Below the pieces are notes generated by a model, which was given only the letters and a program-made list of their open reading frames with translations, searched no databases and was not told the origin of the DNA. Position numbers and translations under genes: made by a program. From Desulfarculaceae bacterium (GTDB taxonomy: Bacteria > Desulfobacterota > Desulfarculia > Desulfarculales > Desulfarculaceae), in the NCBI GenBank assembly GCA_020444545.1, contig JAHLKT010000003.1, positions 372,001 through 436,000 of the forward strand: a stretch of DNA of 64,000 nucleotides, read 5' to 3'. Within the stretch, counting starts at the first letter, position 1, and each line of letters begins with the position of its first letter. Of the stretch, positions 50,855-55,949 are shown in pieces.

Positions 50855-52915
50855 CTAGAAGCTCCATTGCAGCATCAGCTTGAAGGCGCGTCCCGGCTGG
50901 GAGGAGAGGCCCAGATCCTGCCAGGTGCGCGAGACGTGGTCATAGTAAAAGCGGTCGCCTATGTTCTCCACCGAGAAGATGACCTGCTTGTTCTTGCCCA
51001 GGGACCAGCCCAGACGAAGGTCGAAGCGGGCCCAGCCGCCGGTGCGCTTTTCGTTGACCGCCACCCTGTCCTGCTCCGTGGCCCACAGCAGGCTGAACTC
51101 GGCCCATCCCCGGCCCGTGGCCAGCTCCTGGTCGTAGCGCAGACCGGTCTTCCCGTTGAGCGGCGGGATGCTGGGCAGGTCCGAATCGTCCTCCAAGTCC
51201 TGGCCGATCACGTAGCTGGCCGTGGTGAAGGCCGAGAGCCCGCCCACGATGCCCACGTCCAGACTCAGCTCGCCGCCGTAGAGCAGGGCCTGGTCCAGGT
51301 TGCTCCAGGTGTATTCGCTACCCGTGTCCAGCTTGGCGATGTAGTTGTCGATGCGGTTGTAGAACAGGCTGAACATGCCGCTCATGCGCTCGGTGCGCAT
51401 CTTGAGCCCCACGTCGAAGTTCCAGGAGGTCTCGGGCGAAAGATTGGGGTCGCCCACGTCGTTCTTGGAGCTGTCGTGGGGGCCGTAAAAATAGCGCTCC
51501 AGCAGGGTGGGCGCGCGGAAGGCCCGCCCCACGTTCGCGTAGAGGTTCAACTCGTCGGTGGCCCGGAACAATAGCCCCAGGCTGCCGCTCATGGCGCTGT
51601 CGGTTTGGCTCATGGACGAGGTGATGTCGTGTCCCTTGGCCCCGTCGGTGGAGGAGTTGATCCAGTCGTAGCGCAACCCGGCGGTGAGGCTCCAGAGGGG
51701 CGCCAGGCTGATCTCGTCCTGGGCGAACACCCCCACCCCCCAACGCTGCGAGTCCGGGATCACCGGCACGTTGTTGAACAGTGGGTTCACCCAGCTCGAT
51801 GCGGTGTCGGTGATGGTGCGGCCGCTGGTGGCGTTTTCGAAAAAGCTGTCCAGGCCGTAGACCAGCTTCTGGCGCTCGCCCACCGATTTGAAGAGCATGG
51901 GCTTTAAGGAAAAGGTGTCGATGTCCACGGTGATGTTCACGTCCATGTCGCCCTGCACCGCCGGGGGTATGCCCTGGTCCAAGAGGCGCTCGCGGTTGCG
52001 CTGGTGGCGCTGGGCCCCGATCAACAGCTCCATGCGGTCGGCCACCGCGTAGTTGAGCTGGCCGTTCAGGCGGCCGGAGAGGAAGTGCTCTTTCTCGTCC
52101 TTGAACTTGTCGCTGACCACCGAAGGAGCGGCCGGGATGCCCAGGGTGGCGTCCATGAAGTAATAGTAGAAATCCGCCTGCCAGACGGGGCCCAGGTAGT
52201 TGCCCCCCAGCCAAGCCATGCCGCCCTTATAGGAGCTGTTGTTCAGCTCATAATCCGGGGTCTCCACGTTTTGGTTGTCGCGGTAAAAGCCGCCCACCAG
52301 GCCGTTGAGGCGGCCCTGGCCGAAGCCCAGGTTGGCCGCCGCCCGGTAGCCCTGGGGATCGCTCAGGCCGGTGACCGAAGCCTCGCTGTCCAGGCGGGCT
52401 TTTTTGCTGGTCTTGCGGGGGGCCTGCTTGGTAATCACGTTGATCACGCCGGCGATGGCGTCCGAGCCGTAGAGCACCGAGGAGGGCCCCCGCACCACCT
52501 CCACCCGCTCGATCTGGGCCGGGTCCAGGGACAGGATGTGGTTGCCGCCCGGGCGCTGCTCGCTCAGGCGCACCCCGTTGATCAGCACCAGCACCCGCTC
52601 GTCGTACAGGCCCCGGATCATGGGCCGCACGCTGTTGGGGCCGGTGGTGGAGGCGTTCAGGCCGGGCTCGCCCCGGAACACGTCCTCCATGGAGATGGCT
52701 CCCCGCTCCTCCAGGGCCTCGGAGGTGATCACGTTCATGGGCACCGAGGTGTCAAAAGCGCTGGATTCCTGGCCCGAGGCGGTTACCACCGTCTCGCTCA
52801 GTTCGGTGACGGGCGTTGCGGGGGCGCTCTTTTCCTGGGCCCCGGCCACGCCGGCCATCCCGGCCAACAGGCAAAGCACGGCAACCGCCGCGCGCAAAAT
52901 TCTTGCGGTGTTCAT
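50855..52915 (-). CDS. TonB-dependent outer-membrane receptor
   Basis: A 686-aa receptor. ATG 52915 has a GGGGAG site; signal peptide to about residue 27 (AGVAGAQ). A TonB box-like segment ELSETVVTAS follows, then the plug (~45-170: NVITSEALEERGAISMEDVF, RGLYDERVLVLINGVRLSEQRPG, IERVEVVRGPSSVLYGSDAIAGVINVITK) and a 22-strand barrel, with the terminal Phe of the insertion signal (KLMLQWSF). The plug resembles BtuB/FecA-like receptors; the ligand (metal chelate, cobalamin or siderophore) is not given by sequence. It follows a small His-rich membrane protein by 77 bp and is probably co-transcribed with it from a promoter carrying dyads. Confidence 0.94.
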   Translation of the reverse strand: MNTARILRAAVAVLCLLAGMAGVAGAQEKSAPATPVTELSETVVTASGQESSAFDTSVPMNVITSEALEERGAISMEDVFRGEPGLNASTTGPNSVRPMIRGLYDERVLVLINGVRLSEQRPGGNHILSLDPAQIERVEVVRGPSSVLYGSDAIAGVINVITKQAPRKTSKKARLDSEASVTGLSDPQGYRAAANLGFGQGRLNGLVGGFYRDNQNVETPDYELNNSSYKGGMAWLGGNYLGPVWQADFYYYFMDATLGIPAAPSVVSDKFKDEKEHFLSGRLNGQLNYAVADRMELLIGAQRHQRNRERLLDQGIPPAVQGDMDVNITVDIDTFSLKPMLFKSVGERQKLVYGLDSFFENATSGRTITDTASSWVNPLFNNVPVIPDSQRWGVGVFAQDEISLAPLWSLTAGLRYDWINSSTDGAKGHDITSSMSQTDSAMSGSLGLLFRATDELNLYANVGRAFRAPTLLERYFYGPHDSSKNDVGDPNLSPETSWNFDVGLKMRTERMSGMFSLFYNRIDNYIAKLDTGSEYTWSNLDQALLYGGELSLDVGIVGGLSAFTTASYVIGQDLEDDSDLPSIPPLNGKTGLRYDQELATGRGWAEFSLLWATEQDRVAVNEKRTGGWARFDLRLGWSLGKNKQVIFSVENIGDRFYYDHVSRTWQDLGLSSQPGRAFKLMLQWSF

Positions 52916-52992
52916 TTTTTCTCCCCGCAATAAGGTCCCTGGGGCGCGCCGCGGTTGGCGGCCCCGGGAAAGTTCAAGCCGATGTCAAAAGA

Positions 52993-53370
52993 TCAGACCA
53001 CGGCTTGGCGGGGGGGAGAACGCGAGGCGCATAGGCGGCGGTCGGCGGTTGCCAGGGGCCCTTCGCCACGGGGGAAGGCCTGGCCCAGGCAGGCCAGGGA
53101 GCCCGCCACGCCGGCCAGGGCCGCGTCAGCCTTGGCCAGGAAGTGGGCCAAAAAGGCGCACAACGCGCAAGGCCCGTGCGCGGGGGACTCGGCCAAGGCC
53201 TGGGCATGCAGGCCGCCCGAGGGGTGGGCGTGGCGCGGACCATGCTCGTGCAGCCAGGGGTGCAGCAGATGCCCCAGGCCACCGGCGTAGAGCATGAACC
53301 CCACCAGCAGCCAGGCCAGGGCCCGGCGCCTCGGATGGGTGGGGCTATTGCCTGAGCCGCGTTGGAGCAT
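52993..53370 (-). CDS. Small membrane protein with His/Cys metal motifs (DUF2946-like)
   Basis: A 125-aa protein. ATG 53370 is preferred over 53400 because of an AGAGG site. A basic start (HPRRRALAWLL) leads into a signal or transmembrane helix, then a His-rich stretch HLLHPWLHEHGPRHAHPSGGLHAQ and the pair HGPCALCAFLAHFLAKADAAL with a C-x-x-C motif. This pattern resembles DUF2946-type proteins found beside TonB receptors and metal-transport genes; I assign it by pattern only. It lies directly upstream of the TonB receptor. A role in periplasmic metal handling is inferred. Confidence 0.65.
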   Translation of the reverse strand: MLQRGSGNSPTHPRRRALAWLLVGFMLYAGGLGHLLHPWLHEHGPRHAHPSGGLHAQALAESPAHGPCALCAFLAHFLAKADAALAGVAGSLACLGQAFPRGEGPLATADRRLCASRSPPRQAVV

Positions 53371-53416
53371 ACCGCCTCTGGCAGGGTTGAGGGGGAGCAT
53401 TGAACATGATGTCTTG

Positions 53417-53591: not shown

Positions 53592-53900
53592 TTACTTCTT
53601 GGTCAGTTCCTTGATCTGCTTCTGCTGCTCGGCCAGCACCTGGAGCGCGATGCGCTTCATGAAGTGGGAGACCGTGCGGCAGTTCTTGTTGATCAGCAGA
53701 TCGATGTTCTTGCCCTGGGCGCGGCCGGCCAGGTTGCCGGTGGAGTTGCCCTTGGCGTCTTCCACGTGCCAGGCCTGGATGGTCTTACCGTCGAACTTGT
53801 CAATAACGACCTTGAAGTAACCGTTCGGACCAACAAACACGTTGTTGGCTGCATCGAGGACGATGGGCTTGTCGTTTTCAAGCATACCCTCGATGAACAT
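53592..53900 (-). CDS. 102-aa protein of unknown function
   Basis: Not recognised. A small, probably soluble protein: IVLDAANNVFVGPNGYFKVVIDKFDGKTIQAWHVEDAKGNS, then a Lys-rich helical tail (HFMKRIALQVLAEQQKQIKELTKK). No signal peptide is visible with the 53900 start; an ATG at 53885 is an alternative and neither has a good ribosome site. It lies 12 bp after the 384-aa exported protein gene and before a strong terminator. Confidence 0.65.
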   Translation of the reverse strand: MFIEGMLENDKPIVLDAANNVFVGPNGYFKVVIDKFDGKTIQAWHVEDAKGNSTGNLAGRAQGKNIDLLINKNCRTVSHFMKRIALQVLAEQQKQIKELTKK

Positions 53901-53912
53901 GGAGCAGGTGCT

Positions 53913-55067
53913 TCAAGTGTCCGGGCGGTAGATGAACCGCTTGTCCGGGGTCCAGGGGCTGGGGTTGCCCAGCTTGACCAGGTCGGTGAGCAGCGCGAGC
54001 TGCACCTTGCCGTTTTGGAAGGCGCCGCCGGCCTTGTAGATGTTCAGCTGGAGCTGAACCCGGTCGGCGGGGTCGCGCAGGATGAAGCGGGCGCGGCGCT
54101 CCTCATCCACCGGCATGTACTTAAGCACGTCGGCGGTGAGGGGGCCCAGGCGCTTGGTGTAAGCGGCCCCGCTCTTGTCGCAGGTCAGTTTCACATCGGC
54201 CCAGTTGGGCCCGACCTTGGTCACCTCGGCGGTGAAGCCGCCGCCCTTGACCTTCTCGCCCACGCCCACCACGGCCTCGACCGGCTCGTTGGGGCTAAGC
54301 AGCATGGAGGTCAGGGCGCCGGTGGCGAACTCCTTGACCTGAGCGCCCTTGGGGGTCACCTTGTCGGCCACCAGATAGGTCTGGCCGCTGATGGCCACCG
54401 AGCTGGCGTAATACTCGGTCTCGAAGTCCTGGCCCTTGTCGGTGGGCAGGTAGGTCCCGGTCTTGCGGCCGGAACCGTTGTTCAGCTTGCCGCTGGTGAT
54501 GTCGGTGAACAGGTTGCTGGTGGCCACGGGGAAGGCCACGCCGTAGTAGTTGCCCGACTGCTTAAGGATCTGGAAGGTGGCGTTGGGCACGGGGAAGCCG
54601 TTGGCGCCCATGGCCAGCTTGCTCAGACGCAGGCGCTTGGTGGCGTCGCCAAAGGGCACGCCCTTCTTCTTGCCCACCCACACGTTGGTGATCACGTCCA
54701 GCTTGGTGGACTGATCCACGAACTGATAGAGCTTGCCCAGCAACAGGACCTTGTCGCCCTGCAGCACGCCGCTCTTGGGGGTGCGGGTAGTGTAGTAGAG
54801 CCCCGAGGGGGGGATGATGATCTTGCCGTTTTCAATGCGGCTCTTGCGGATCACCAGACCCTCGCTGAGGGTTATCTTGCGGATATAGCTTTTAGTGGTG
54901 ACATCTTGAATGCCGGGAAACTCCGCCACCACGGCGCAGTTTTTGGCGGGCGCGGTCATGAGGGCGCGCGCTTCGGCCTTGTCGGCCGCCATTGCCGCCG
55001 ACGGCAGGATTGCTCCCGCCGTGAGCATGGTTAGAATGCCGAGACCCGCTAAGGTCTTGTGAAACAT
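53913..55067 (-). CDS. 384-aa exported protein of unknown function
   Basis: Not recognised. ATG 55067 has a perfect GGAGGA site; the signal peptide runs to about residue 27 (ILPSAAMAADK). The mature region is rich in short beta-strand patterns with many Lys and Gly: RKITLSEGLVIRKSRIENGKIII, YYTTRTPKSGVLQGDKVLLLGKLYQFVDQ, NGFPVPNATFQILKQSGNYYGVAFPV, VKEFATGALTSMLLSPNEPVEAVVG, NPSPWTPDKRFIYRPDT. One Cys near the start of the mature protein and one near residue 290 could pair. It looks like a periplasmic or surface beta protein. Middle gene of a three-gene unit. Confidence 0.75.
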   Translation of the reverse strand: MFHKTLAGLGILTMLTAGAILPSAAMAADKAEARALMTAPAKNCAVVAEFPGIQDVTTKSYIRKITLSEGLVIRKSRIENGKIIIPPSGLYYTTRTPKSGVLQGDKVLLLGKLYQFVDQSTKLDVITNVWVGKKKGVPFGDATKRLRLSKLAMGANGFPVPNATFQILKQSGNYYGVAFPVATSNLFTDITSGKLNNGSGRKTGTYLPTDKGQDFETEYYASSVAISGQTYLVADKVTPKGAQVKEFATGALTSMLLSPNEPVEAVVGVGEKVKGGGFTAEVTKVGPNWADVKLTCDKSGAAYTKRLGPLTADVLKYMPVDEERRARFILRDPADRVQLQLNIYKAGGAFQNGKVQLALLTDLVKLGNPSPWTPDKRFIYRPDT

Positions 55068-55163
55068 TTTGTCCTCCGTTATACGCCTGGACGTCCAGGC
55101 CCACCCCAACACGGGGAGGGCCTCCCCTCTCGCATGGGGAACAGAAATCAGGCCGTGTTTGGC

Positions 55164-55469
55164 TCAGCAGCCTTCGTCAGGAGCGATGATGGGCACCAGA
55201 GGCGCGGGCGCCGGCTTTTTGTCCGCCGGCTTGTCGGCCTTTTGGCCCTGGTCTTGGGAGGCGGCTTTTGCCGGCTGGCCCTGCTGCTGGTCCTGCTTTT
55301 GCTCCGGGGGCCGGGTCTTTTGCTGGTCGTTCATCACGACCTTCACGCCCGGGCCGATTTCCCCGCCGATGGTGCAGTTGCCCGCGGCTTGGGTGTTCGA
55401 CGCCAGGTAGATCCCCAGGGTCAGGGCCAGGCACAGGCCGGTGCTCATTGCCAAAGTGTTGATTTTCAT
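55164..55469 (-). CDS. 101-aa exported Gln/Lys/Pro-rich protein
   Basis: Not recognised. ATG 55469 with an AGAGA site begins MKINTLAMSTGLCLALTLGIYLASNTQAAG, a signal peptide. The mature part starts NCTIGGEIGPGVKVVMNDQQK, continues as a low-complexity Gln/Lys/Ala/Pro stretch (about residues 50-90) and ends IIAPDEGC, with a terminal Cys. The low-complexity part is probably unstructured. The two cysteines, one at each end of the mature protein, could form a disulfide or attach a ligand. First gene of the unit, 96 bp before the 384-aa protein. Confidence 0.65.
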   Translation of the reverse strand: MKINTLAMSTGLCLALTLGIYLASNTQAAGNCTIGGEIGPGVKVVMNDQQKTRPPEQKQDQQQGQPAKAASQDQGQKADKPADKKPAPAPLVPIIAPDEGC

Positions 55470-55949
55470 GCCAGTCTCTCGCCGATTTGAATTCGGTCCG
55501 TTTTTGGGTTCAGCCGGCGTCTCACCAGACAAAACATAGTTATTGCCTATGGTTATATCCGCCGAGCATCTCTATTTTCTATTTAACCGGAAATGCCGGC
55601 GCGAAACAACGCGCCCGCAATATTTTTCACCCGCGCCCGCAAAAAATTTGCGTGGCTGCGGCCGCCAAAGGCCCCTTCGAATAACAAGCCGTTTTCACGG
55701 TACATTTCAAAGAGCCCTTTCCAAAACAGAAGAAGGGACCAGCCCGATGGCTGACCCCTCCTGATTATTCTGGCGCACCGGGCAGTTGCCTCCCCGGCCG
55801 ACCTTCAGCGGGCCTTTTGCTAGAAAGACCCGTTATTTGGTTCTGCTACCAAAGGCCACCCACCCCATTAACCGAGTGGCCTGTCGACTAAAACTATAGC
55901 CGACCGGGATGAAAAATCAACAAAAACCGTGTGGAATTCCTATGTATCA
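55470..55949. other. 480-bp non-coding region with dyads and a hairpin cluster
   Basis: The part near 55469 holds CATAG-N7-CTATG (55535-55551), an 11-bp direct repeat CGCGCCCGCAA (55610-55620, 55632-55642) spaced 22 bp, and CGCAAA-AAA-TTTGCG (55638-55652); this looks like a regulated promoter. The part 55730-55885 has at least four short hairpins in a row, including AGCC/GGCT, CCGGG/CCCGG, TTTGGT/ACCAAA and AGGCCAC/GTGGCCT. No gene and no known riboswitch was recognised. Confidence 0.5.
55853..55882 (-). terminator. Possible terminator of the ketone-carboxylase operon
   Basis: Seven-bp stem AGGCCAC/GTGGCCT (55853-55859, 55876-55882) with a 16-nt loop, followed by TTTGG on the minus strand, 68 bp after the VOC gene. 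The T-run is short. Confidence 0.35.

Follow-up and report, generated by a model that had tools for sequence, protein, structure and literature searches.

A highly probable selenoprotein of an apparently undescribed family, with a predicted surface-layer-like beta fold, in a Desulfarculaceae bacterium

The alternation of TGA and Cys codons at one invariant position is the customary comparative proof of a selenoprotein. CGHC is the motif of PDI, while SoxY and DsrC are swinging-arm sulfur carriers. Roughly 119 families of prokaryotic selenoproteins are listed (Table 1 of a 2026 review, PMC13188914), and the same review describes most characterised selenoproteins as thioredoxin-like. It also gives the bSECIS model, which calls for a G within the first two positions of the loop and a distance of 16-37 nt from the UGA. 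Among surface-layer proteins, DUF1608 domains occur in tandem, and their sandwiches resemble proteins of eukaryotic viruses (PMC5744192).

The locus described here would place a UxxC motif on an S-layer-type beta fold, whereas the majority of characterised selenoproteins are thioredoxin-like. It is an apparent addition to the roughly 119 listed prokaryotic families, and annotation hides the family by splitting the gene at the UGA. The family spans several phyla and recurs in bacteria related to the gut bacterium Mailhella. Relatives lie beside little-studied sulfur and molybdopterin clusters, which offers a testable entry to the extracytoplasmic sulfur chemistry of sulfate reducers.

Layout of the unit and its upstream region

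The unit was examined within the window (the whole stretch of 64,000 nucleotides that was analysed). An earlier note on this DNA had listed three genes here, and the three minus-strand ORFs are indeed where it placed them (101 aa, 55469-55164; 384 aa, 55067-53913; 102 aa, 53900-53592). However, comparison with relatives indicated that the 384-aa and 102-aa ORFs make up one Sec-containing frame. The unit is two minus-strand genes, encoding a small exported protein and one exported protein of 491 residues. All three ORFs share one frame, with TGA codons between them, and reading the second TGA as Sec joins the last two into a single 491-aa protein (...FIYRPDT-U-STCSMFIEGM... in the read-through translation). 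We dropped the shared frame as a proof in itself: in this GC-rich window, 13 of the 46 long TGA-ended stretches are likewise open beyond the TGA, for at least 106 codons, so that comparison must decide.

On that comparison, it is highly probable that the two ORFs are one gene (53592-55067, minus strand; 491 codons and a TAA stop) and that the TGA at 53915-53913 encodes selenocysteine 385. The read-through translation and the orthologues, which carry a single TGA at the matching place, both point to this. The second residue of the UxxC motif would be Cys388 (TGC, 53904-53906, minus strand), and the 102-aa ORF (53592-53900) would be the C-terminal part of the selenoprotein and not a separate gene. 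A GGAGG at 55073-55077 precedes the ATG of the selenoprotein, and a signal peptide is recognisable by eye at its N-terminus; we agree with the earlier note that the proteins look exported. The strong terminator said to bound the unit was also confirmed (53561-53534, minus strand), with a 12-pair stem and a T-rich tail.

The 101-aa gene (55164-55469, minus strand) encodes an exported protein that has a linker of low complexity and ends in Cys. Its orthologues lie directly upstream of the selenoprotein gene in six genomes (the window's own, G001, G006, G007, G010 and G017), and all end in APDEGC. This ending is followed by TGA in one, TAA in one and TAG in four of them, so the TGA at 55166-55164 is an ordinary stop. 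The search found the protein in 5 of the 20 genomes of the family, the copy in G017 being below threshold and recognised by eye. An extra Cys near the mature N-terminus is seen (by eye) in five of the six orthologues, and the protein had no family match in Pfam or NCBIfam. With its conserved terminal Cys on a flexible linker, it might serve as a partner or thiol substrate of the selenoprotein.

We also observed that a regulator of the PAS-LuxR type precedes the gene pair in G006, G010 and G007 (L069, L070 and L022, with a Pfam scan for L069). There is none ahead of the pair in the window's genome.

A complex promoter had been proposed upstream, and its elements do exist. The direct repeat CGCGCCCGCAA has copies at 55610-55620 and 55632-55642 on the plus strand, with starts 22 bp apart, and the dyads CATAG-N7-CTATG and CGCAAA-AAA-TTTGCG are present at 55535-55551 and 55638-55652, respectively. 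Each, however, is of a kind that recurs in the window, where the background is 9 exact 11-mer repeats (15-40 bp spacing), 44 six-bp N3 dyads and about 1.9 five-bp N7 dyads per kb. The relatives mostly lack them: the upstream regions of five relatives differ (by eye), the direct repeat was seen in none of these, and only AGGCAATAAC, from within the CATAG dyad, recurs, in L068. The repeats and dyads are individually ordinary and mostly not conserved. Side-by-side binding of one regulator, which had been suggested from the repeat spacing, is unsupported, since relatives that retain both genes do not share the repeats. The hairpin cluster was borne out as a strongly folding stretch of 171 nt (55720-55890, minus strand; 4.96 s.d. 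below shuffles, z -4.96). It is present in a single copy, with a terminator-like hairpin (55731-55762) at its end and a promoter-like site ahead, and no Rfam family matched it over the gathering score. This stretch is a possible small RNA, and may lie outside the two-gene unit.

Selenocysteine and cysteine at one position among the relatives

We compared the codon at the Sec column in 39 loci, and observed TGA in 15 and Cys in 24, with no other residue. The motif was UxxC in all 15 TGA loci, while the Cys loci had CxxC in 20 of 24 and CPxG in the other 4, most Cys forms being CGHC. The 39 loci are an examined subset (further matches exist among the Mailhella relatives), and each locus was counted once. 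The fragments L022, L026 and L027, which do not cover the site, were left out, as were the N-terminal copies of tandem proteins, in which the corresponding position is not Cys (by eye). Loci retrieved twice were merged (L053=L018, L054=L020, L055=L021, L058=L023, L061=L039, L056=L081), and the repeat matches L033-L038, L040 and L042 were dropped.

In a search of 148 genomes (own genome included), the window's own genome, G001, G006, G010 and G017 each had a full-length orthologue whose frame holds a single TGA, always at the same place; those of the last four are 68-87% identical to the window protein. All of these orthologues keep TGA-STC, so the motif is present in five of the five GTDB-family genomes with a copy long enough to include the site; the copy in G007 is shortened and ends before it. 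More distant relatives have CGHC (G087 and G108) or TGA (UPQC, in G143) at this column. The window's own genome also holds a Cys paralogue with CPQG and no TGA (L028, G000:C3:14998-16224). A scan of named genomes gave 15 loci, from Desulfarculaceae, Desulfocarbo indianensis SCBM (L054), Candidatus Mailhella (TGA, UASC), Deltaproteobacteria, Tectomicrobia, Methylomirabilota, Acidobacteria (CGHC), Pseudolabrys, Sphingobacteriaceae and Paenibacillus thalictri (CPTG). The 16 rows of an alignment (A4) show no exception to Sec or Cys at this column, and no relatives were found on viral contigs.

Among the relatives of Mailhella, the family is present in 21 of 198 genomes. At the 20 loci checked at the site, we observed TGA in 9 and TGC or TGT in 11, with a Cys three residues on in every one. 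Four loci (L097-L100) represent a second Sec subfamily (PETUATC) in these bacteria, and match scores suggest that some of the genomes hold both Sec subfamilies together with the tandem Cys form.

The genome of the window encodes a tRNA-Sec (73 bits, and found by ARAGORN too), SelB (398 bits), SelA (610 bits) and a selD with one in-frame TGA (L078, G000:C1:335187-336113), so that SelD is probably a selenoprotein itself. With these components together, the organism very likely reads UGA as Sec. Of the 15 genomes with TGA forms, 12 have a tRNA-Sec that scores over the family cut-off (own, G001, G006, G010, G143, G441, G465, G537, G464, G598, G449 and G608). It was not found in the other three, G017 (70% complete), G462 and G455. 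The exchange between TGA and Cys at a single invariant site, the UxxC motif and the Sec machinery together argue strongly for a selenoprotein.

We further looked for a SECIS element past the TGA. The window has a candidate bSECIS hairpin by a fixed stem-loop rule (UCGAG-GGUAUG-CUUGA, 53878-53893, minus strand; loop 24 nt past the TGA), which fails the energy-based bSECIS rule. RNAalifold on five orthologues prefers another consensus hairpin (53852-53895), with almost no covariation. Clearer cases are found in relatives: L025 has an evident bSECIS hairpin (GAUGGCC-GGUCU-GGCCAUC, 21 nt past its TGA), and L098 and L100 have GCACG-AGGU-CGUGC at 22 nt. The first test, by the energy rule, was non-discriminating, since 50 of 115 control positions within the gene passed it, and the Cys loci were taken as the control. 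The stem-loop rule was passed by 6 of the 15 TGA loci (window included) against 1 of the 24 Cys loci (Fisher p 0.008), in rows that are not independent: three of the rows that pass come from closely related Desulfarculaceae, and L098 resembles L100. In these counts L025 was reassigned manually, out of the Cys group and into the TGA group, as its aligned column is one codon before its TGA (script count 5/14 versus 2/25). Synonymous codons are mildly more conserved just past the TGA (21/29 versus 136/260 overall, p 0.016, for a region chosen afterwards). The candidate SECIS of the window is plausible.

Other readings of the TGA codons were weighed against selenocysteine. Were the TGA at 53915-53913 a true stop, the 384-aa and 102-aa proteins would be separate; standard gene callers would split them so, an ATG follows five codons after the TGA, and an open frame past a TGA is not rare in the window (the 13 of 46 given above). 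The Cys relatives, however, run straight through as one protein, the codon is always TGA in the 15 loci and never TAA or TAG, and no GGAGG-like site is seen (by eye) ahead of the ATG of the 102-aa ORF, and we regard two separate proteins as very improbable. The same 15 loci, with Cys as the sole alternative, speak against a TGA read as some other amino acid (Trp, Cys, a mis-reading) and against a sequencing error or a recent nonsense mutation, as do the full Sec machinery and the TGA-containing selD of the genome. Although the Sec assignment of the 491-aa protein comes from sequence comparison, we give such readings even less credence. Lastly, both TGAs could encode Sec, which would make a single protein of about 625 aa from the whole stretch; the frame is the same and the first TGA directly follows a Cys. 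The stop codons of relatives refute this reading, as TAA or TAG replaces the first TGA in five of the six orthologues of the 101-aa protein; in addition, a ribosome-binding site and a new signal peptide come after it.

Predicted fold, gene neighbourhoods and proposed role

AlphaFold, run on alignment A4, gave a confident and nearly all-beta model (mean pLDDT 82.6, pTM 0.80), in keeping with the beta protein of the earlier note. The Sec is placed in a turn between the strands 378-384 and 391-398, and the ten-residue blocks of 361-440, which span the TGA, have pLDDT values of 94, 94, 87, 94, 95, 96, 95 and 95. The best structural matches of the window model among the Foldseek top 1000 were 3u2g (Z 9.3 over 224 residues, rmsd 6.2) and 3u2h (Z 8.9), which are the DUF1608 (PF07752) domain of MA0829, an S-layer protein of Methanosarcina acetivorans. 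Partial matches to viral envelope proteins came next (Z 7.2 and below), and no viral structure matched the model over its full length. When the Paenibacillus relative (about 25% identical) was modelled as well, 3u2g was again the match (Z 9.7, 220 residues, rmsd 6.8; Foldseek E 1.9e-5, probability 1.00). Foldseek against the PDB with the window's own model gave nothing below 1e-3; a PF07752 search of the window's genome had 0 matches at E 10, and none of 16 members gave this family a score. The tandem arrangement and virus-like sandwiches of DUF1608 (PMC5744192) fit the tandem relatives and the partial viral matches seen here. From the models, an all-beta fold like that of the archaeal S-layer domain appears likely. 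The exported look and the best match to a surface-layer protein make 'a secreted or surface structure', as had been suggested, a fair guess.

The relatives' gene neighbourhoods were then considered. The tandem Cys forms (about 960-1,020 aa) have CGHC in their C-terminal copy only. Their clusters, which were scanned in part and with some members recognised by eye, include a molybdopterin oxidoreductase, an iron-sulfur protein, NrfD, a small helix-hairpin-helix protein, a PF03601 transporter and arylsulfotransferases, and possibly represent an undescribed sulfur redox cluster. Tandem two-domain Cys relatives within conserved clusters were seen at L072, L073, L074, L060, L062, L064 and L105. The Paenibacillus and Pseudolabrys forms adjoin DsrE, TusA-containing, YeeE-type or MetE-like genes, and in G608 a gene recognisable by eye as a molybdopterin oxidoreductase precedes the Sec form by about 2 kb, in the same orientation. 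In the window itself, a TonB receptor and unrelated genes surround the unit, with no pointer to sulfur. The TonB-dependent receptor and a 135-aa protein adjoin the unit (50855-53400, minus strand), and relatives of both are close by in G001 (L068).

From these neighbours, mostly those of Cys forms, we infer an extracytoplasmic protein of selenol/thiol redox or sulfur-carrying function. The Sec machinery of the cell would read the TGA at 53915-53913 as Sec, giving the 491-aa exported protein. This protein would work outside the cytoplasm, possibly at the cell surface (a location suggested by the fold), in selenol/thiol redox or in the carrying of sulfane sulfur during the metabolism of sulfur compounds. 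By analogy with the relatives' gene context, such a sulfur redox role has about an even chance of being correct.

A surface-layer or envelope coat protein, in which a selenenylsulfide or disulfide cross-link between the Sec/Cys residues stabilises the structure with no redox turnover, would also accommodate the export, the best fold match to an S-layer domain and the tandem two-domain relatives, which recall the Methanosarcina S-layer proteins (PMC5744192). Selenium, however, is expensive for a structural bond. The Sec/Cys site is invariant, whereas 4 of the 24 Cys forms lack the second Cys, and the relatives have conserved redox and sulfur genes as neighbours. We therefore think a purely structural role rather unlikely. 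An exported, Sec-read 491-aa protein with an S-layer-like fold and a role in sulfur redox is, taken as a whole, quite probably the best explanation of the locus. We also put forward, as a speculation more doubtful than not, that an S-layer-type domain, of a fold common to archaea and bacteria, has been turned into a selenium redox device on the outside of sulfate reducers. A small carrier ending in Cys would then serve a Sec coat protein, which would handle polysulfide, thiol or sulfonate chemistry together with molybdopterin enzymes.

Comparison with known families

The earlier note had called these proteins unrecognised, and our searches of Pfam and NCBIfam gave no family match either. The window protein and six relatives had no NCBIfam match, and Pfam searches with 16 members gave nothing convincing, as did the sequence search of the PDB. 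We took weak scores to SAM_HAT_N, urease alpha and Big_6 (3 of 16 members, best E 0.005) to be chance matches. No entry of Table 1 of PMC13188914 (119 families) fits by name or domain. Full-text literature searches, with few subscription papers in their scope, listed no paper with the 491-aa protein family described in its title or the opening of its abstract. Together, these negative results have led us to consider the 491-aa protein as representing an apparently undescribed selenoprotein family.

The unit can be set beside four described systems. The 101-aa protein resembles SoxY and DsrC in bearing an invariant Cys at the end of a flexible tail; unlike them, it has no sequence match, the Cys is its last residue, and a carrier role here is putative. 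The 491-aa protein shares the UxxC or CGHC motif, with its two-residue spacing, with oxidoreductases of the thioredoxin/PDI type, but its models are nearly all-beta and the motif is in a strand-turn-strand and not at the start of a helix. The likeness to DUF1608 of MA0829 (3u2g) lies in a match over 220-224 residues in two models, the export and the tandem two-domain forms. In contrast to DUF1608, the identity is 11-14% with no PF07752 sequence match, the Sec/Cys site is invariant, and the likeness comes from predicted models only. As in the known bacterial selenoproteins, there is an in-frame UGA at a UxxC motif, with Cys homologues and Sec machinery in the genome; unlike the families in Table 1 of PMC13188914, from which it is set apart by name and domain, this family has no NCBIfam or Pfam match and is not thioredoxin-like.
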